A DNA stretch of 35,262 nt. Origin: a virus. Both the position numbers and the translations under genes were made by a program. The notes beneath the pieces were generated by a model. The model saw nothing but the letters and a program-made list of their open reading frames with translations. It was not told where the DNA came from and made no database searches. Positions 7,828 through 35,131 of the stretch are shown one piece after another. The stretch spans positions 1-35,262 of IMG/VR virus record IMGVR_UViG_3300035703_000251. The stretch is one strand, 5' to 3'. Position 1 is the first letter of the stretch. The number at the start of each line of letters is the position of its first letter.

Positions 7828-8847
7828 CTATTTCTTCTTTAGCTTCTTCGCGGTCAGTCTCACGTGGCCAGCTCGCTTGACCTTGCCGAGATTCGCAGTC
7901 GCTTCGATGATGTCCTGCTCTCCCCAGATCTGGTCTTTGATCAAGGTCCGTCGAAGCTCGAAGTCAGCATCAGGAAACCGGCCAGACTCTGCATCCTGCA
8001 TGGACCAGAGGAGCTTCCCGCGAATCTCATCGAGTTCGTCTTCGATTCGCTTCTTCTGCTCCTTCAGCTGCTCCGATCGAGTCCAGAGGGCCTGATCGAC
8101 TTCGCAGAGCAAAGCCGTTTTCCCAGCATCATGCCCGAAGAGAGTTTGCAGCAGCTTCGACGTTCCTGAATGGCTCCAGTTCGGCTCGGGTGGATCTCCA
8201 GCGATGATTCGCTCGGCCAGTTCACGCTCTGCTGAAGCGATCTGCTCGATCAGATCATCATTCCGGGCCACGGTGTAGATCAGCAGATCCCGGCCATCGA
8301 CCAGGACAGGGAAGTCGCAGCGGTCGCAATTCACGACGGCCATTTGCTGTTGAGCCTGGAAGAGATAGCTCAGAGGAATCTGATCGGTTCCCGGCTCTCC
8401 GAACTTCTCGTGATCGTCTCCCGATCGATCAATCATGCGGAAGCTGGTCGCCTTTGCATCGACCGACCACTCATCGCCAGACTGCTGCGCGATCGCGTCC
8501 GGAGTTGCGGCCATGAACATGAACACCGGATGGAACAGCAGCGGCAAACCTCGATCAAGAATGCAGTCGGCTTCCTCCTCGTAGCAGTCGAGGATAACGC
8601 TTTCGAGCCTTCGCCCCATGTTGACGCGATTCGTCGAGGCCTCATCCCAGGACTGTTCGAACTCGCCCCGCTTTTCGAGGTACAGCTGGAGGGCTGACGA
8701 ATACGGCGACACGTTGCAGGCTGCAGCAGCTTCAGAAGCCCCGAAGACAACCGGCCTGGCTCGATTCGGATCGAACTTGCGGACGCTGTACCATTCCGCA
8801 GAGTAAGCTGGCGGTCCAACGATTGGTTTTGTGATCTGCGTTGTCAT
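7828..8847 (-). CDS. YqaJ-type viral recombinase exonuclease
   Basis: Predicted 5'-3' double-strand DNA exonuclease (PD-(D/E)xK fold) that makes single strands for the annealing protein encoded downstream. Visible signature: FGASEAAAACNVSPY (residues about 35-49), GRRLESVILDCYEEE (about 76-92), the active-site pair in FMAATPDAI and WSVDAKAT (about 112-133), and the helix QAQQQMAVVNCDRCDF (about 168-184), the usual YqaJ order. The C-terminal 100 residues contain a coiled coil (EQLKEQKKRIEDELDEIRGK) typical of the longer members. It is coupled by ATGA to the CsrA gene upstream. Length 339 aa is normal for this branch. Confidence 0.88.
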   Translation of the reverse strand: MTTQITKPIVGPPAYSAEWYSVRKFDPNRARPVVFGASEAAAACNVSPYSSALQLYLEKRGEFEQSWDEASTNRVNMGRRLESVILDCYEEEADCILDRGLPLLFHPVFMFMAATPDAIAQQSGDEWSVDAKATSFRMIDRSGDDHEKFGEPGTDQIPLSYLFQAQQQMAVVNCDRCDFPVLVDGRDLLIYTVARNDDLIEQIASAERELAERIIAGDPPEPNWSHSGTSKLLQTLFGHDAGKTALLCEVDQALWTRSEQLKEQKKRIEDELDEIRGKLLWSMQDAESGRFPDADFELRRTLIKDQIWGEQDIIEATANLGKVKRAGHVRLTAKKLKKK

Positions 8848-9020
8848 TGCTCCGAATTCTCCCGTTTGATTGCCTCGTAAACTTCCCCGCGATGAACACG
8901 AACATCAGCAGGGGCATCGATCGACAGGCGAACTCGCCCGCCCTTCACTTCCTGGACGATCACTCGGATGTTGTCACCGATCCGAATGATCTCCTTCGGT
9001 TTTCTGCTCAGTACCAGCAT
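8844..9020 (-). CDS. csrA: CsrA-family RNA-binding translational regulator
   Basis: 58-residue protein with the full CsrA pattern: MLVLSRKPKEIIRIGDNIRV, then VKGGRVRLSIDAPADVRVHR and GEVYEAIKREN. The VHR Arg needed for RNA binding in known CsrA proteins is present. CsrA binds GGA in loops near ribosome sites and blocks or stabilises mRNAs. I chose the ATG at 9020, which has GGAG 7 bases upstream. The start lies 47 bases inside the preceding gene, and the stop overlaps the exonuclease start by ATGA. Host copies are normally chromosomal, so a copy inside a phage early operon suggests control of host or phage mRNAs after induction. The family call is very secure; the target is unknown. Confidence 0.95.
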   Translation of the reverse strand: MLVLSRKPKEIIRIGDNIRVIVQEVKGGRVRLSIDAPADVRVHRGEVYEAIKRENSEQ

Positions 9021-9318
9021 CGACAGCTCCTTTTTCCTCTTGGGCCTCTTCAATGAGGCTCCGAAACTCATGAACAAAAATCAGCAGGCTTTTCGCACCT
9101 TCAGTGTCCCAGTCGAGCAGGTCGAGAAAATGCCGGAAGAACGGCTTCATCTCTGTGAACTCTTCCCGCGTCCAAACACTCATGAAACACGCGACGACGC
9201 ACACGCTTTGCAGGGCGTCATCGAGAATCCAGTCGCAATCTCGAAGGACTACGGCAGCGGCCTTCACATCCTCTTTCGTCCAGTGGACGGCTTTGCGGGC
9301 GAATTCGTTGCCTGTCAT
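8974..9318 (-). CDS. hypothetical protein upstream of csrA
   Basis: 114-residue protein, no recognised domain. It looks mostly helical: VHWTKEDVKAAAVVLRDCDW, a hydrophobic middle (DDALQSVCVVACFMSVW) and an acidic, low-complexity tail (GAVDAGTEQKTEGDHSDR). The last 47 bases contain the start and ribosome site of csrA, so the tail sequence may be shaped by that overlap. ATGA overlap with the upstream gene supports expression. Confidence 0.65.
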   Translation of the reverse strand: MTGNEFARKAVHWTKEDVKAAAVVLRDCDWILDDALQSVCVVACFMSVWTREEFTEMKPFFRHFLDLLDWDTEGAKSLLIFVHEFRSLIEEAQEEKGAVDAGTEQKTEGDHSDR

Positions 9319-11850: not shown

Positions 11851-11889
11851 GAACCTCCCCGGGCCGTCCGAACTGGCTCTTGAGCCCGT

Positions 11890-11919
11890 CTGGCAGACAT
11901 CCTCCGAGTGTCCTGCCAG
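11890..11919 (+). promoter_or_regulatory. hairpin overlapping the ribosome site of the DUF1353 gene
   Basis: CTGGCAG (11890-11896) pairs with CTGCCAG (11913-11919); inside it ACA pairs with TGT with one bulged C, giving about 10 bp. The loop holds CCTCCG. The AGGA used by the ATG at 11931 begins at 11918, so the stem covers its edge. It may limit translation of the first right-arm gene. Confidence 0.45.
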
Positions 11920-11930
11920 GAAAGCTCGCC

Positions 11931-12314
11931 ATGAGCGACAGCGACAAGCCAAAATTCATTCCCGTCGGCGGGCTATACGCCACGGCTGAAGATCTGCGAG
12001 TCGAACTCAGCGAAGTTCCCCAGGTCAGCCACTCGGTTCTGATCCCAGCTGGTTACACGTTCGACGGGGCTTCAATCCCTCGGTGGCTTTGGTCTCTGAT
12101 CGGCTCCCCGTTCGAGCCGGAGCTGATGCTGGCGGCCTGCGTTCACGACTGGTACTGCGAGCATACCTCGCAGCACTACGAATCGAGGGCTATCGGCGAT
12201 AGTGTGTTTTTCATGCTGCTCCGAAAGGCGGGCGTACCGGTCTGGCGTCGTCGGATCATGTTCCTCGGAGTGCGGGCGAATTCATTCTGGTTCTACGGGC
12301 GAAACATCCAATGA
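11931..12314 (+). CDS. DUF1353 phage protein
   Basis: 127-residue protein with the DUF1353 pattern: VLIPAGYTFDGASIPRWLWS, then IGSPFEPELMLAACVHDWYC and a C-terminal helix with SRAIGDSVFFMLL. DUF1353 is found in many phages, often near lysis or baseplate genes; its function is unknown, though its conserved His and Asp (VHDW) hint at a metal site. I chose the ATG at 11931 because AGGA precedes it. An earlier in-frame ATG at 11880 lies in the hairpin region. It overlaps the thermonuclease gene by ATGA. Confidence 0.8.
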   Translation: MSDSDKPKFIPVGGLYATAEDLRVELSEVPQVSHSVLIPAGYTFDGASIPRWLWSLIGSPFEPELMLAACVHDWYCEHTSQHYESRAIGDSVFFMLLRKAGVPVWRRRIMFLGVRANSFWFYGRNIQ

Positions 12315-12769
12315 CGGTTCACATTCTCAGGCTCATCCCCGGCGTTGCTCTGGCTCTCATGATGGTCGCTGCGATCACTGTCGCAGATGCCCCGAAGCCG
12401 TCCTGGACAACTGCGGCAAAGGTTCTGCGAGTCATCGACGGCGACACGCTCGAAGTCGAAGTTCGGCGAGTGATCCGAGTTCGGCTCCTCGACTGCTGGG
12501 CCCCGGAGAGCAAGATCGACCCGAGGATCCCTGAGGGCCGACAGGCTGCAGAGAAGAAAGCCGGTCAGGCATCGAAGGCGAATCTCCAGAAGCTCGTCGA
12601 AGGGAAAGATGTGATTGTCCAGATCCCGAGCGATGCCGAGGTGGCAAAGTCGATCACGATGGGCAGATGGCTCGGTCGAGTGTGGATTGAGGGCGACGGG
12701 GAGTCGCTGAACGAAAAGCAAGTTCGCGGCGGTTTCGCGACGAAAGCCAAAAGGGAGGAACTGAAGTGA
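12311..12769 (+). CDS. secreted thermonuclease-like protein (SNase fold)
   Basis: 152-residue predicted secreted nuclease. Residues 1 to about 26 are a signal peptide (LIPGVALALMMVAAITVADA). The SNase core follows: AAKVLRVIDGDTLEVEVR, VIRVRLLDCWAPES with the family Arg and Glu, GKDVIVQIPS, GRWLGRVWIEGDGESLNEKQ and RGGFA. Known members cut DNA and RNA and need calcium. In a phage it could degrade extracellular DNA or free nucleic acid in the periplasm; this is inference. It is coupled to both neighbours by ATGA overlaps. Note Cys in place of the usual Ile or Thr in LLDCWAPE. Confidence 0.88.
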   Translation: MTVHILRLIPGVALALMMVAAITVADAPKPSWTTAAKVLRVIDGDTLEVEVRRVIRVRLLDCWAPESKIDPRIPEGRQAAEKKAGQASKANLQKLVEGKDVIVQIPSDAEVAKSITMGRWLGRVWIEGDGESLNEKQVRGGFATKAKREELK

Positions 12770-13878
12770 AGAGGAACATCGTATGGGCCCTGCTGATCAC
12801 ATTCGTCGTCAGCTTGTTTGGCCAGATCGCCTTTGGGCAGTGTGTTCGGCTTGATGTCGACGGCGATCGGCCAGGCAAAGGGACTGCGTTTTGCATTGGT
12901 CAGACTCCCGAGGGTAACGGGGTCTATCTGACTGCGAAGCACAATCTGCGCGGAGCTGAGCGAATTCGAATCAAGGTCTTTGGGAAATGGTACCAGGGAA
13001 CCTGCATCAATCAGCATCCGACTGAGGATGTCGCCAGCTTCGAAGCTCGAGTGATTGTCGACGCTCTGAATGTCGGCGACGAGGAGCCATCCGGCGAGCG
13101 AGTTCGGATCTCGGGCTTCGGTCCAGAGTACTTCGGGAGGGAAGCCTGCAGTTTTTTTGGGGTCATCGACGACGGCTCTGTCCTCGGGGAGAAGGGCTTG
13201 CATCCGATCCCGGGAGACTCAGGGGCTCCCGTCGTGATCGGCGAAAACGTCGTCGTCGGGGTAATCTCGGGCTATGACACTCCGTACCAGCACACTTCGT
13301 TTCGATCAGACTACTCGGAGCAGCGACTTCGGACCCGATACACCGGTGTGGTGAAAATCCGCGAATGCCTGCAGCAGTGTTACCAATCCTGCCCGCCTGG
13401 AGGCTGCAGGATCTACATTCGCCAGGAGTATCGACAGCCAATCGGGTTCCTCGGAATGCCAGCTGGGCCACCGCAACGAGTCAACATCGCAGAGCCGGTT
13501 CCTCGTGTCTTCGTTCCGGAAGATCAGCCGACGCGGCCAGTTCCGGATCGAATCTCTGTACAAGGCCCGCCAGGTCCGCAGGGGCCTCCGGGGAAGGATG
13601 GCCGGTCTGTCACTCAGGCTGAAGTCGAGGCAGTCGTGAACGCTTGGCTCGACGCGAACCGCGACCAGCTGCGAGGGCCACAGGGACCGCCAGGGCCAGC
13701 GGGTTCATCAGCTTCGACGGCAGCACTTGAGACACGATTGACATCACTGGAGCAACGGCCGTTCAGAATCATCCTGTCATCAGATGGCAAGGTGATCGAC
13801 GACGAAACATATAGACCGGGGGAGCCGGTCGTTCTGGATTTGAAACGGCTTCGGAGTGTTTCTGATGCCAACAACTGA
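12766..13878 (+). CDS. secreted trypsin-like serine protease with collagen-like repeats
   Basis: 370-residue predicted exported protease. Signal peptide residues 1-24 (NIVWALLITFVVSLFGQIAFG). The chymotrypsin-fold triad is visible: His59 in YLTAKHN, Asp88 in PTEDVASFEA, Ser152 in PGDSGAPVV. A Cys-rich segment at about 200-215 (CLQQCYQSCPPGGC) follows the domain. Then come a Pro-rich spacer, two short Gly-Pro-Pro collagen-like runs (GPPGPQGPPGKDG at about 266 and GPQGPPGPAG at about 304) and a C-terminal domain (LEQRPFRIILSSDGKVIDDE). The collagen-like runs suggest a trimer. Proteases of this kind are rare in phages. It may act on the host surface or as a structural, fibre-like protein. It is coupled to the thermonuclease and to the next gene. 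Confidence 0.9.
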   Translation: MKRNIVWALLITFVVSLFGQIAFGQCVRLDVDGDRPGKGTAFCIGQTPEGNGVYLTAKHNLRGAERIRIKVFGKWYQGTCINQHPTEDVASFEARVIVDALNVGDEEPSGERVRISGFGPEYFGREACSFFGVIDDGSVLGEKGLHPIPGDSGAPVVIGENVVVGVISGYDTPYQHTSFRSDYSEQRLRTRYTGVVKIRECLQQCYQSCPPGGCRIYIRQEYRQPIGFLGMPAGPPQRVNIAEPVPRVFVPEDQPTRPVPDRISVQGPPGPQGPPGKDGRSVTQAEVEAVVNAWLDANRDQLRGPQGPPGPAGSSASTAALETRLTSLEQRPFRIILSSDGKVIDDETYRPGEPVVLDLKRLRSVSDANN

Positions 13879-14161
13879 AACGCCAGTCATCGGGGACGGT
13901 GTTATCACGATTGAATTGCCCGACGAAGGAAAAAAGAAAATGCCACTCGATCTGCCAGAAGGCGTCGGTCAGCTGATGATGACCGAGACAGCAGGCAACA
14001 TTCAGGCCAGCAATCGCAACTCGCGAAACGTTGGCGACATTGCCATGGGAGCCCTTCAGGGAACCATGGTAGCGAACTTCAAAGACACTGGTCTGATTGA
14101 AGGACGCACGGCTTCAGGCATCCTGGCAACTCCAATTGCGAGCCCAGCGAAGTCTGCATGA
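13865..14161 (+). CDS. hypothetical protein
   Basis: 98-residue protein starting MPTTETPVIGDGVITIELPD, with a central DLPEGVGQLMMTETAGNIQA and a Gly/Ala-rich end (DIAMGALQGTMVANFKDTGL). No domain recognised. GGAG lies 7 bases before the ATG at 13865, which is inside the last codons of the protease gene. The C-terminal part (about 55-98) has a small hydrophobic stretch but no clear membrane helix. Its position, coupled between the protease and a pair of overlapping small genes, suggests one functional cluster. Confidence 0.6.
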   Translation: MPTTETPVIGDGVITIELPDEGKKKMPLDLPEGVGQLMMTETAGNIQASNRNSRNVGDIAMGALQGTMVANFKDTGLIEGRTASGILATPIASPAKSA

Positions 14162-14421
14162 TCACTATCGAAGCGATAGTTCGTCGAATTCTCGACGAAA
14201 ACAAGGCGGCTCGGGATGAGGCCGAAAAGTTCACATCCCGAGCCGTTTCTGCAATCTCAAGGAATGCACCAGATGAGTTCTCCGACATCATCATCGACGC
14301 CAGTGGAACGGATCGAGAAGGCAGCGGTCAGCCGGTGGAAACTGGAAACACTGACAGGGCTTCTGGGTCTGCGATCGCTCCAGTCCCATCAACAACAGTC
14401 GGAACTGAATCAACGGGCTGA
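14158..14421 (+). CDS. hypothetical small protein, overlaps next gene
   Basis: 87-residue protein. The N half is helical and charged (MITIEAIVRRILDENKAARD), the C half is Ser/Thr/Gly-rich and likely unstructured. It starts with an ATGA overlap with the gene before. Its last 149 bases also encode the start of the next gene in another frame. One of the two may be favoured; the N half looks more like real protein than its tail. Confidence 0.5.
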   Translation: MITIEAIVRRILDENKAARDEAEKFTSRAVSAISRNAPDEFSDIIIDASGTDREGSGQPVETGNTDRASGSAIAPVPSTTVGTESTG

Positions 14422-14737
14422 AAACGAACACGTACGGCGCAGCGTTTGGGGATTCGAAGAGAAAGCTGCTCAGGGTGACGACATGCAATCGCAAACAATC
14501 CTCGGTGATCATCACATCACTCACCCGACGCCGATCATCTTGAACAATCAGCCATCCGGACAAACGGGGAGCCTCGCGAAAACCTTGGCCATTCTTGCTG
14601 CCGGTGCTTTGATCCCTGGGGCCGGAGTTGGCGGCTACCTCGCTTCGCAATTGTTGAAGCCAAAGCCGGAAACGAAAGCCCCAGCAGATGAGACGCTGGA
14701 TCTCGGCCTGCTTCGCGTTGAGGATCTGGAGCAGTGA
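14273..14737 (+). CDS. hypothetical membrane-anchored protein
   Basis: 154-residue protein. Residues about 1-90 are polar and helical (VERIEKAAVSRWKLETLTGL). A Gly/Ala-rich hydrophobic segment follows (TLAILAAGALIPGAGVGGYL, at about residues 105-125) and could span the membrane. A charged tail ends in GLLRVEDLEQ. I chose the ATG at 14273 with AAGGA 9 bases upstream; an in-frame ATG at 14216 lacks a ribosome site. The stop overlaps the GTG start of the sigma factor (GTGA). A holin-accessory or head-associated role is possible, but the sequence does not decide. Confidence 0.55.
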   Translation: MSSPTSSSTPVERIEKAAVSRWKLETLTGLLGLRSLQSHQQQSELNQRAENEHVRRSVWGFEEKAAQGDDMQSQTILGDHHITHPTPIILNNQPSGQTGSLAKTLAILAAGALIPGAGVGGYLASQLLKPKPETKAPADETLDLGLLRVEDLEQ

Positions 14738-15279
14738 CGGCAGCCCATGTTCTTCGAGATGAAGCCATGAGGCAGATCCGGCCAGAGGATCACATCGGCC
14801 TGGCCTGCATGATCGCTGCGAAGTTCACAACGCTGCATCCGATCGAAGACTCCGAGCAATTCGGGGACGCGATGGTCGGACTCATGAAGGCTGTCGAGAA
14901 GTTCCGGCCTGAACTCGGGTTTCAGTTTTCGACATTCGCCTACCACGTCATAAAGCGGCAAGTCATCGCAGGGTGGAAGCGAAGGCGCAAAGATGCTACA
15001 CGGATTTCCAGCACGTTCCTGGAGGACATTCCGGCCAGTCGTGAGTCCTTCGACGTGTCGGAGGGTGTTGACACTCAGGATCTGCTCGCGACAATGTTGG
15101 AGAATGTCAGTATATTACCCGAACAACAGCGGGCAGTGATCGAGGCCAGGCTGCAAGGCAAGAAGCTCCGAGAGATATCGGAAGCGATGGGACTGACAAA
15201 GCAGCGTATCCAACAGATCGAAGAACGTGCAACACGTATGCTACGCTGCATGATGGCACAAGCGGGGGCTATAGGATGA
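14734..15279 (+). CDS. sigma-70-family sigma factor
   Basis: 181-residue protein with regions 2 and 4 and no region 1. Region 2 (about 44-86): DAMVGLMKAVEKFRPELGFQ, then FSTFAYHVIKRQVIAGWKRR, the core-binding and -10 recognition helices. Region 4 (about 126-172): LPEQQRAVIEARLQGKKLRE, then ISEAMGLTKQRIQQIEERAT, the -35 HTH. It starts GTG at 14734, overlapping the preceding stop, with a possible later ATG at 14767. Phage sigma factors usually switch on late genes; here it sits directly before the packaging and head genes, so control of the rightward late operon is likely. Alternative: host-like factor picked up by transfer. Confidence 0.9.
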   Translation: MTAAHVLRDEAMRQIRPEDHIGLACMIAAKFTTLHPIEDSEQFGDAMVGLMKAVEKFRPELGFQFSTFAYHVIKRQVIAGWKRRRKDATRISSTFLEDIPASRESFDVSEGVDTQDLLATMLENVSILPEQQRAVIEARLQGKKLREISEAMGLTKQRIQQIEERATRMLRCMMAQAGAIG

Positions 15280-22174: not shown

Positions 22175-22246
22175 GCCGGGGTAGAGCAGAGGCAGCTTGC
22201 AAGGCTCATAACCTTGAGGTCGGTGGTTCGAATCCATCCTCCGGTA
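22175..22246 (+). tRNA. tRNA with CAU anticodon (Met or lysidine-type Ile)
   Basis: A full 72-base cloverleaf can be drawn. Acceptor GCCGGGG with CTCCGGT (7 bp, two wobbles), D arm GAGC/GCTT, anticodon stem CAAGG/CCTTG with loop CTCATAA (anticodon CAT), variable AGGTC, T arm GGTGG-TTCGAAT-CCATC and A discriminator. CCA is not encoded. It lies between the capsid and the next head gene. CAU can read Met, or Ile AUA if the cell has TilS; the sequence alone does not tell. The gene is 29 bases before a ribosome site for the next protein, so it may be cut from the polycistronic late mRNA. Confidence 0.93.
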
Positions 22247-22281
22247 CTTTCAATTCAATCAAACCCTCTGAGGATTCAGCA

Positions 22282-31748: not shown

Positions 31749-33641
31749 ATGACTGTAAAGATTTGGCGCGGCGACGCTCCAGCAGTGGCTCAAGTGACTC
31801 GGATCACTCCAGCGAACGTCGAGATCGGTGACGTGTTTACGCTCACGATCAACGGGAAGTCGATCAGCGTAACGGCAACGGCTGCAACGGTCTCCAGTGT
31901 CTGCACTCTGCTTGCTGCTGCCATCGCGGCCAGTGTCGCGACGATTCCGGAGCTGAACGACTTCACCGTGTCGAATCAAACAAGCTCCCTGCTGCTCACT
32001 GCCAGGACTGCGGGGGTTCCGTTTGTCATCACGGCCAGTGCGACGAATGGCAGCTCGCTCGGTGTCACTGTGGCGACTGTACGCAACGGAGCTGCAGCTG
32101 GGTCGGTCGTTAATATGACTCAGACCTTCAAGATTCCTGTTTCCGCCTCGGGAACATTCGTGATTGCCATCGGTGGACAGTACACCTCTGGAATCGCTAT
32201 CGGCGCAAGTGCTGCAGCGGTTGAGACTGCAGTCGAGGGACTGAGTTCTGTCGGGACTGGAAACTGTTCAGTTTCAAAGTCGACAGATTCAAATGATGAT
32301 ACTTACGTTCTGACTTTCGATGGGGCTCTCGCGGGAACAACAATTGCGACTGCAGTTGTTACGATCAGCTCGACAAAGCCGATTGTCAGAACTACTCAGC
32401 AAGGCTCGGCAACAGGCACAATTCAGAACGAGATCCAGACGATCGACACGGGAAGTCTGACTGGGAGCATCTTGGCGGAATCATTCAGTGTCACCTTTAA
32501 CGGTCAGTCGAATGGCGCCGGGAGCTGTTTCCCAAGTACGACGGCTGCAGGGCTCGAAGGTCAACTCGAAGCCCTTAGCAATCTGAGTTCGGTCACTGTT
32601 ACGAAATCTGGCCAGGTCTTCACTGTGGAATTTACCGGGGCAGATGGCAGCGCGAATCAACCTCAGATGACCGTCTCGAATTACGGATCATCAACATCCG
32701 ATCATGCGATTACAGTCACGACGACTCCCGGCAGTGGCGCTGGTTCTGCAGTCAACGAGCAGCAGACCGTCACTCTGACCGGAGTTCCGACCGGTGGAAC
32801 GTTCACGCTGACATTTGACGGACAAACGACTTCAGCGATCGCGTACAACGCCTCAGCGGGTACCGTGGAAGCCGCACTCGAAGCACTGAGCAACATTGCG
32901 ACCGGGGACGTTGACGTGACAGGATCGGCGGGCGGCCCGTGGACCATTGATTTTGTCAACGGGATGGCGGCAACCAATCAGCCCGAGATGACAGCAAACG
33001 GGAGCAGCCTCACTGGAGGATCTGGTCAGTCGATCACGGTGGCGGAAGTCACTGCCAGCGCGGGGCCAAACCATTGGGACACGGCATCAAACTGGATTCC
33101 TGCTGGTGTCCCAGTGAACGGAGACGATGTTCGATTCGAGTTCGGAAACGTCGCCTGTCTCTACGGGCTCTCTCAGACCGCCGTAACGCTTTCAAGTTTT
33201 CATGTCGGGATGACATACACGGGAAAGATCGGCCTCCCGCGAATGAACTCGGTCGGGTACGTCGAATACAGAACGACAGAACTCAGCATCGGAGCCAGTT
33301 CGATTCTGATCGGCTACGGCGAAGGCTCCGGCCCTTCGAAGGTCGCACTGAACACGGGATCGGTTCAAACGGCCATCGAAGTCAGAGACGCGGGAGGAAG
33401 CTCAGAATCGGGCATTCCATGCGTCACATGGCGGGGAACGCATGCCAGCAACGCGATTCAGATCTATGGCGGCGACGTGGGGATCGCTCCGTACTCTGAT
33501 CAGTCTGCGAACGTGGCGACACTGGTACAACGCGGGGGAACTCTTGACGCGAAGCATACGGCGTTCTCGACCTCCATTCTGTTCGTCTCTGCCCTGTTCT
33601 ATGACTGCACACTGAACGGCCAGCCCCTCGGATCTTACTGA
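31749..33641 (+). CDS. tail fibre with internal beta repeats
   Basis: 630-residue Ser/Thr/Gly-rich protein. At least three repeats of about 90-110 residues between about residues 120 and 440 share a core: strand-rich GTFTLTFDGQTTSAIAYNAS, then AGTVEAALEALSNIATGDVD, then VDFVNGMAATNQPEMTANGS. Copies 1 and 2 have degraded versions (FSVTFNGQSNG; LEGQLEALSNLSSVTVTKSG). The C-terminal 190 residues look like a parallel beta-helix (HWDTASNWIPAGVPVNGDDV, then TTELSIGASSILIGYGEGSG). Repeats of this kind also occur in large planctomycete surface proteins. Probable receptor-binding fibre; followed by a glycosyltransferase that may modify it. Confidence 0.75.
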   Translation: MTVKIWRGDAPAVAQVTRITPANVEIGDVFTLTINGKSISVTATAATVSSVCTLLAAAIAASVATIPELNDFTVSNQTSSLLLTARTAGVPFVITASATNGSSLGVTVATVRNGAAAGSVVNMTQTFKIPVSASGTFVIAIGGQYTSGIAIGASAAAVETAVEGLSSVGTGNCSVSKSTDSNDDTYVLTFDGALAGTTIATAVVTISSTKPIVRTTQQGSATGTIQNEIQTIDTGSLTGSILAESFSVTFNGQSNGAGSCFPSTTAAGLEGQLEALSNLSSVTVTKSGQVFTVEFTGADGSANQPQMTVSNYGSSTSDHAITVTTTPGSGAGSAVNEQQTVTLTGVPTGGTFTLTFDGQTTSAIAYNASAGTVEAALEALSNIATGDVDVTGSAGGPWTIDFVNGMAATNQPEMTANGSSLTGGSGQSITVAEVTASAGPNHWDTASNWIPAGVPVNGDDVRFEFGNVACLYGLSQTAVTLSSFHVGMTYTGKIGLPRMNSVGYVEYRTTELSIGASSILIGYGEGSGPSKVALNTGSVQTAIEVRDAGGSSESGIPCVTWRGTHASNAIQIYGGDVGIAPYSDQSANVATLVQRGGTLDAKHTAFSTSILFVSALFYDCTLNGQPLGSY

Positions 33642-34738
33642 TGCTCCGGACACAGATGATCTTTCGCGGCGTGGATCACATCCGCGAACGGATTGCCACC
33701 TTGCACGGCATAGAGAACGCTTTGCAATGGTGGCCACCGAAAGAGCAGACTCCCAGCTCCGGCTGCCGTGTCGGTTTTCTCGCGACGGCTTACCTGCCAA
33801 TCGGCGGGACAGAAACGCTTCACAGAACGCTGCTTCCTCGACTGCGATCCGTCGTCGATCTCGCTGGCTTCGTTTCGACGGCAACTCACGGGGGCGATGG
33901 CGAGAAGCTCGAAGTGAACTACGCGACTGGATCACATGCAGCGCGGCTGCTCGCGGCTCACTGCGATATCATCGTTACCTGGGGAGTCAAAACACTGGCG
34001 CAGATCCTGCCAGCGCAAAGGCCGAAGGTTATCGCGGTCCATCATGCCGACTGGTCAAGCGGCTGGAGCAATGAGCTGATTCTGAACCAGTTGGATCTCA
34101 CGGACGCGGTTATCTGCGTTAATGAAGACACGGCAAGCAGGCTTTCAAGCTGTGGCAAGCCAGTGCACTACATTCCCAACGCGATCGACCCGCAAAGGAT
34201 CTGCCCGAGTGGAAAGCAGTCCGAGCTTCGCTCACGGTGGGGCATCTCGCCGAATGCGAAGATCCTTCTCTTCGGCCATCGACTCAGCGCTGAGAAGCGG
34301 CCGACAATGGCCGTCGAGATCGCGAAAGCCCTTCCAGACGATTGGGTCCTGGTCATTGCAGGCGACGGGCCAGAGCGGAATGCCGTCGAGGCGATAGCTT
34401 CCGATCGTGTTCGGATTGTCGGCCCGTGCGATTCATTGGCGGACTGGCTTTCGATCTCCAGCTGCTTCTTGAGTCTATCGACCTTTGAGGGCTTTGGCCT
34501 GGCAATAGGTGAAGCAATGGCGGCCGGAGTTCCGACAGTCAGCACTTCGACCGGGATCGCTCCCGGGCTGGCTGCAACGGTTCCGACGGATGCAAGTGTC
34601 GACGAATGGGCACGCGCGATCGTCAACGAGAAGCCGATCGTTTCACCTCGGAGGGTTCTCGATCTGTTCAATGTCGAGCGAATGGTCGAAGCATGGGCTG
34701 GCGTGATAGCACAAATCGCCCCGAAAAAAGGCCACTGA
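33641..34738 (+). CDS. GT4-type glycosyltransferase
   Basis: 365-residue GT-B enzyme. N domain: GFLATAYLPIGGTETLHRTL (about 45-65), DIIVTWGVKTLAQILPAQRP and VIAVHHADWSSGWSNELI. C domain: YIPNAIDPQRICP, ILLFGHRLSAEKRPTMAVEI, VLVIAGDGPERNAVEA and the nucleotide-sugar site FLSLSTFEGFGLAIGEAMAAGVP with the EGFGLAIGEA motif. It moves an activated sugar to an acceptor. Placed directly after the fibre (TGATG overlap), it may glycosylate the fibre or, in lysogens, change a host surface sugar. Substrate unknown. Confidence 0.9.
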   Translation: MLRTQMIFRGVDHIRERIATLHGIENALQWWPPKEQTPSSGCRVGFLATAYLPIGGTETLHRTLLPRLRSVVDLAGFVSTATHGGDGEKLEVNYATGSHAARLLAAHCDIIVTWGVKTLAQILPAQRPKVIAVHHADWSSGWSNELILNQLDLTDAVICVNEDTASRLSSCGKPVHYIPNAIDPQRICPSGKQSELRSRWGISPNAKILLFGHRLSAEKRPTMAVEIAKALPDDWVLVIAGDGPERNAVEAIASDRVRIVGPCDSLADWLSISSCFLSLSTFEGFGLAIGEAMAAGVPTVSTSTGIAPGLAATVPTDASVDEWARAIVNEKPIVSPRRVLDLFNVERMVEAWAGVIAQIAPKKGH

Positions 34739-34810: not shown

Positions 34811-35131
34811 ATGTCCAACGGAGAAGGTGCAACTGACACGAAGACGACGATCATTCGCGGGATGCTGGAGTGGTGGAAGGGTCAGCCATTCGCCAATTCA
34901 ATGGCCTTCCTGCAGCTGATCGCCATGGGCGGCGCGGTGTATCTCGCTGTGTATGTGCTGATCCCAGCTGAGCGCCAGGCAATTCAGCAAATGATCGAAC
35001 ACGTGGAGGATCAGCAGACTCAGCAGATCGACCGGCTTTCCGATTCGTTTGACCGAGCGCTGGATCGCATCTCACCTGCTGGCGTCAAAGTTGGTTCAAG
35101 TTCTACAGCGGCTATTGGTGGAAATGATTGA
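34811..35131 (+). CDS. small membrane protein, possible holin-like
   Basis: 106-residue protein. One membrane helix at about residues 34-52 (FLQLIAMGGAVYLAVYVLIP) follows a polar N terminus. After it comes a Gln-rich coiled coil (QAIQQMIEHVEDQQTQQIDR) and a small Ser/Gly-rich tail. GGAG lies 9 bases before the ATG. Location at the end of the structural genes fits a lysis-region membrane protein, but the single helix plus coiled coil is not diagnostic of a holin. Confidence 0.6.
   Translation: MSNGEGATDTKTTIIRGMLEWWKGQPFANSMAFLQLIAMGGAVYLAVYVLIPAERQAIQQMIEHVEDQQTQQIDRLSDSFDRALDRISPAGVKVGSSSTAAIGGND

Follow-up and report, generated by a model that had tools for sequence, protein, structure and literature searches.

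In the lambda-type lysis cassette, genes for a holin, an endolysin and spanins are located before the terminase. Other prophages encode secreted enzymes that alter the lysogen, for example the DNases of streptococcal prophages. Little is known about phage exit from planctomycetes, the envelope of which is built unlike that of model bacteria. Here we describe a set of genes in the viral DNA of IMG/VR record IMGVR_UViG_3300035703_000251 (positions 1 to 35,262; this whole stretch of 35,262 nucleotides is referred to as the window), which includes a predicted exported trypsin-like protease with a collagen-like stalk. The parts are already known in phages: trypsin-like proteases, collagen-like stalks, staphylococcal-type (SNase) nucleases and DUF1353 proteins. 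The open-access papers searched contained no description of their combination, in which a protease predicted to be exported has a stalk, is accompanied by genes A, B and C, and recurs with phospholipase and nuclease genes before the packaging genes. The same searches found no papers dealing with trypsin-collagen proteins of phages or with phage lysis of planctomycetes.

The lambda-type cassette and the window have in common the pre-terminase position, overlapping small genes, one membrane protein and a hydrolase that is exported or directed at the envelope (predicted here). However, none of the window proteins is recognised as a holin, a peptidoglycan hydrolase or a spanin, and the hydrolases are of the protease, nuclease and phospholipase types. 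Like the streptococcal DNases, the protease and the nuclease are predicted to be exported and are carried by temperate phages, whereas in the window overlaps make the cassette part of a late-type gene chain, and the conserved genes A, B and C go with it. Chymotrypsin-fold proteases (Trypsin_2; the HtrA/DegQ and V8 folds; the phage protease family PHROG 9683) have the same fold, His/Asp/Ser triad and signal-type N-terminus, to which the window protein adds a Gly-X-Y stalk, a conserved C-terminal tip and three dedicated downstream genes, with no PDZ match.

The collagen-like proteins of Escherichia coli prophages and phage tail fibres show the same Gly-X-Y repeats in a prophage-encoded, likely trimer-forming protein; compared with the proteins described there, the window chain adds a signal peptide and a protease domain, and its gene is not beside tail genes (PMC3368898). 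Among known systems, the DUF1353 protein comes closest to TtaP, a group XIV-like phospholipase A2 (PLA2) with the same domain and the same H-D...D set, on which its measured PLA2 activity depends (PMC11525133). Fusions of DUF1353 to lysozyme, endonuclease and protease domains, as well as similar prophage proteins, have also been noted (PMC11525133). In the planctomycete phages considered here, by contrast, DUF1353 is encoded by a separate gene before the predicted exported nuclease and protease.

Organization of the cassette in the window

The cassette genes are arranged in the order DUF1353, SNase, protease, A, B and C, mostly with 4-nt overlaps, and run towards the packaging genes on the + strand. 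The DUF1353 gene (11880..12314, +; Pfam DUF1353, 1.9e-20), the annotated ORF start of which may be too early, is joined by an ATGA overlap to a gene for an SNase-type nuclease with a hydrophobic signal-type N-terminus (12311..12769, +; Pfam SNase, 1.2e-6; PHROG 452 endonuclease, 1.3e-16), and this gene is joined by a GTGA overlap to the protease gene. H89-D90 and D107 are invariant in an alignment of four DUF1353 proteins, and the relation to TtaP suggests that the window protein is of the PLA2 type, with predicted activity. The window gene matches a DUF1353 family that PHROGs labels 'tail assembly chaperone', a name that looks doubtful given the PLA2 activity of TtaP (PMC11525133).

The protease ORF (12766..13878, +; 370 aa) has a GTG start, just 5' of which sits GGGAGGA, a good ribosome-binding sequence. 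A first-pass annotation had proposed, for exactly this ORF, a secreted trypsin-like protease with collagen-like repeats encoded by a phage, and each of these elements recurs in our analysis. The signal peptide proposed there corresponds to a signal-type N-terminus called by eye and by hydropathy (residues 1-24, 12766..12837, +), which starts with K/R, continues with a hydrophobic stretch and ends at AFG/Q; from it we infer export. The triad is at the residues first named, that is, His59 in LTAKH (codon 12940..12942, +), Asp88 in TEDVASF (13027..13029, +) and Ser152 in GDSGAP (13219..13221, +). Trypsin_2 (Pfam) matches residues 39-166 with E=8e-6, slightly below the gathering score, and matches 6/6 members of the first protease alignment (best 6e-12). 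AlphaFold2 places the domain in an S1-type beta-barrel with pLDDT ~80-90 across most of its length (from a shallow alignment), and a Foldseek search with this model retrieved HtrA/DegQ, V8 and other S1-type proteases (E ~1e-8, prob 1.00). By its motifs and its modelled double beta-barrel, the window protein is an S1 (chymotrypsin-fold) serine protease of predicted activity.

The two collagen-like runs consist of five Gly-X-Y triplets (residues 267-281, 13564..13608, +) and four (residues 304-315, 13675..13710, +), with a conserved helix (~residues 284-302) between them. The runs are short yet beyond chance, as none of 20,000 residue shuffles matched this Gly-X-Y content. Pfam Collagen scored 13.7 bits on the window protein, below the cut-off of 27.2, and matched four of six family members at E<=0.1 (best homologue, 2.8e-8). 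The chain also has a conserved C-terminal tip (residues 331-363, 13756..13854, +; alignments A9 and A10).

The first-pass annotation overlooked the cassette around the protease, i.e., the PLA2-type DUF1353 gene, the predicted exported nuclease and the three conserved downstream genes. Gene A (13865..14161, +; ~98 aa), the start of which overlaps the protease end, is the most conserved member. Gene B (14158..14421, +; 87 aa) follows with an ATGA overlap and is itself overlapped by gene C (14216..14737, +; up to 173 aa, start uncertain). By hydropathy, the gene C product has one Gly-rich membrane-type helix. Its tail is GLLRVEDL, and a GLGRIEDYL-like tail is present in most members. The size of gene A and an AMGxL look-alike prompted a comparison with R-body (RebB) proteins, to which hhalign assigned a probability of 0.2%. 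Six RebB genes in a row do occur in another planctomycete genome (G053:C1:2779423-2782953). Gene C could not be identified as a clear holin, having no family match and a poor AlphaFold2 model (pLDDT 60).

A 4-nt overlap joins gene C to a sigma-70-type gene, and another joins the latter to the next gene; the terminase then follows. The sigma-70-type factor (14734-15279, +), with Pfam regions 2 and 4, lies right behind gene C and could drive late genes. No sigma-70-like promoter was found before the cassette in the window; planctomycete promoters may differ. The phage identity of the record is evident from the portal, prohead protease, terminase, major head protein and tape-measure-like protein encoded on the contig. 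The possibility of a host gene in a misassigned contig was ruled out by the head, tail and packaging genes downstream on the same contig.

Homologues and their genomic settings

Protease homologues were not found in annotated phage and plasmid records. They were found in uncultivated viral contigs (loci L002, L004, L007 and L018, and the fragment L020) and in bacterial genomes (L005 in a Planctomyces metagenome-assembled genome (MAG), L006 in a Planctomycetota MAG, the fragment L023 and the more distant L056). The complete protease is thus represented by the window and six further loci, and its 3' end only by two further loci; L056 is counted apart. A first scan of genome contigs with the protease as the query gave no match, and gene A as the query succeeded instead. 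When 392 genomes from the phylum and 170 from the family were scanned with gene A, only the two known hosts were recovered.

In alignment A10, the signal-type N-terminus and the catalytic His, Asp and Ser are kept in 7/7 complete proteases. Gly-X-Y repeats occur in six of these seven and are longer in L006; L004 has a coiled-coil-like stretch instead, so the stalk need not be collagen. Most members share the tip sequence DGxVIDDExYxPGEPVVLDLKR, from which the L006 copy has diverged. The L007 protease carries an N-terminal thioredoxin domain (1.3e-8), and the L056 protease, which is also stalked, matches Trypsin_2 weakly (0.012) but the family profile at 8e-57. In L020 (1-492), an in-frame stop at the contig edge separates an upstream open stretch from the collagen-tip part, reflecting either a split gene or a sequencing error.

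Genes A, B and C are directly 3' of the protease in 8/8 homologous loci (on truncated contigs, directly 3' of the tip), with very diverged copies in L023. Between the window and L002, identity is 82% for gene A and 48% for the protease. In L006 the protease tip has diverged and so has the gene C tail, and L056 has neither, a co-variation that is compatible with contact between them, seen in two loci only. The small genes of L056 were considered as homologues of A and C, which hhalign did not support. The dN/dS ratios offer only rough support for purifying selection on the cassette, as synonymous sites are near saturation (dS 1.3-2.7, some undefined).

Upstream of the protease, L018 and L005 also have both a DUF1353 and an SNase gene, and L004 has DUF1353. 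In their place, L056 has a class-3 lipase (Lipase_3, 6e-17) and an Endonuclease_NS nuclease (1.8e-12) with a signal-type N-terminus. A lipid-attacking gene type accompanies the protease in five loci, in four of which there is also a nuclease, and the enzymes of L056 are non-homologous to the others. This recurrence is the strongest hint of a joint function. In L002, L007 and L006, no DUF1353/nuclease pair adjoins the protease.

The cassette is upstream of the terminase in the window, L018, L002, L005, L004 and L056. By BLASTP, the large terminases beside it are unrelated except for L002-L056 (26%) and a marginal short match for L005-L056, and the portals are unrelated among the four compared. 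As these neighbours are largely unrelated, the cassette is exchanged between phages as a unit. In L005 it belongs to an integrated prophage with an integrase, and a tRNA-Ala lies just outside. In L006, a solo protease-A-B-C set (L035 3734-6254, G002:C13) is located on a planctomycete chromosome 0.2 kb after a tRNA-Phe, with host genes around it and no phage genes found nearby; it is either a prophage remnant or retained cargo.

A second predicted exported trypsin, fused to a thioredoxin and a Gly-rich membrane helix, is encoded in record IMGVR_UViG_3300007643_000211 (G004; L030 13963-16276, -). The record has two terminase regions and seems to hold two phage genomes. The gene is in the second phage-like region, where it adjoins genes for a small membrane protein and an unassigned 207-aa protein. 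Neighbouring genes in L002, L005 and G004 that were suspected by eye to encode permuted-papain-like proteases gave no Pfam match.

Possible roles of the cassette

Cysteine-rich YTV proteins are reported to be wall proteins in Planctomycetales (PMC8567305). YTV domains are present in both cassette-carrying MAGs (14 and 7 matches) and absent from 14 control genomes. Two penicillin-binding transpeptidases are encoded in each of the two MAGs, so peptidoglycan is probably present as well. No Pfam peptidoglycan hydrolase family was matched among the scanned window proteins or the 28 proteins of the L005 prophage. This absence counts for little, as several of the late proteins matched no family and may include an unrecognised endolysin.

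The role we favour, tentatively and at a little short of an even chance, is that of a mobile phage cassette that breaks the planctomycete envelope, with its protein-containing wall, late in infection. It is suggested by where the cassette lies, by its overlapping genes, by the combination of enzyme types and by the wall of the host. Once the late operon is switched on, the SNase and the protease would be exported by the Sec pathway. The protease, perhaps as a trimer, would remain in the periplasm or on the cell surface, anchored by its stalk and conserved tip and perhaps assisted by protein A and the membrane protein C, and would cut wall and envelope proteins. The DUF1353 phospholipase would attack membrane lipid, and the nuclease would cut DNA that is released or in the periplasm. 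The proposal draws on gene content, conserved gene order, gene overlaps, signal-type N-termini, catalytic residues, the predicted fold and the exchange between phages with unrelated packaging genes, all of which are read from sequence.

More specifically, a disulfide-rich protein wall might be opened by the stalked exported protease, sometimes thioredoxin-fused, together with the PLA2, the nuclease and A-B-C, replacing or acting beside a classical endolysin; we regard this narrower version as rather doubtful. The thioredoxin fusions of the L007 protease and the G004 trypsin would suit such a wall and thereby favour lysis. Several observations weaken the lysis reading as a whole. Given the peptidoglycan that the hosts probably have, a protease by itself might be insufficient for lysis. 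Gene C matches no holin, L006 keeps protease-A-B-C without phage genes, and the DUF1353/nuclease pair does not adjoin the protease in the three loci named above. Moreover, ungated hydrolases exported by the Sec pathway would act once made.

A role in lysogenic conversion or superinfection exclusion ranks close behind, and we consider it a serious possibility, if a less probable one. Hydrolases expressed from the prophage would aid the lysogen (in feeding or competition), or would destroy the proteins and DNA of incoming phages in the periplasm. Lysogenic conversion had been suggested in the first-pass annotation, and the intact solo set 0.2 kb after the tRNA-Phe among the host genes of L006 speaks for it, although that copy may be a prophage remnant. 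Exchange between unrelated phages is typical of cargo, L005 is an integrated prophage, and the site before the terminase is also home to the bor gene of phage lambda. However, the stop/start overlaps tie the window cassette to the chain towards the packaging genes, which fits late expression better, and a search for a sigma-70-like promoter belonging to the cassette found none, a weak argument for planctomycetes.

It is improbable that the protease is a virion part, i.e., a trimeric collagen-stalked tail fibre or spike in which the protease helps the phage to get through the host surface. Phage tail fibres commonly contain collagen-like stretches, and residues 265-315 give weak PHROG matches to tail fibre families, but all seven complete members have a signal-type N-terminus, a feature for which virion proteins, being made in the cytoplasm, have no use, and the gene is away from the tail genes, before the terminase. 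Least probable of all is a housekeeping HtrA-like periplasmic protease of host origin whose sole task is to relieve envelope stress while phage is being produced: the top fold matches include DegQ/DegP/HtrA and host genomes have many trypsin-type proteins, but no PDZ family match was found, most host matches span only the protease part of the model, and the stalk, the tip and the A-B-C genes are cassette-specific.

A conserved protease cassette at the lysis position beside unrelated packaging genes, often with a phospholipase and a nuclease, provides concrete candidates for phage exit. Should late envelope breaking be its true role, the cassette would represent the proteolytic equivalent of endolysins. 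Should it serve as lysogen cargo, it would be an exchanged set of exported enzymes that alters the envelope or the surroundings of environmental bacteria.

Elsewhere in the window, a CsrA-family regulator gene (8844-9077, -; 2.5e-22) is located in the early region, and the major head protein gene is closely followed by a tRNA-Met gene (22175-22247, +). A GT4 glycosyltransferase gene (33641-34738, +; 4.5e-19) lies where the late region is about to end and is followed by an ORF for a small membrane and coiled-coil protein (34811-35131).
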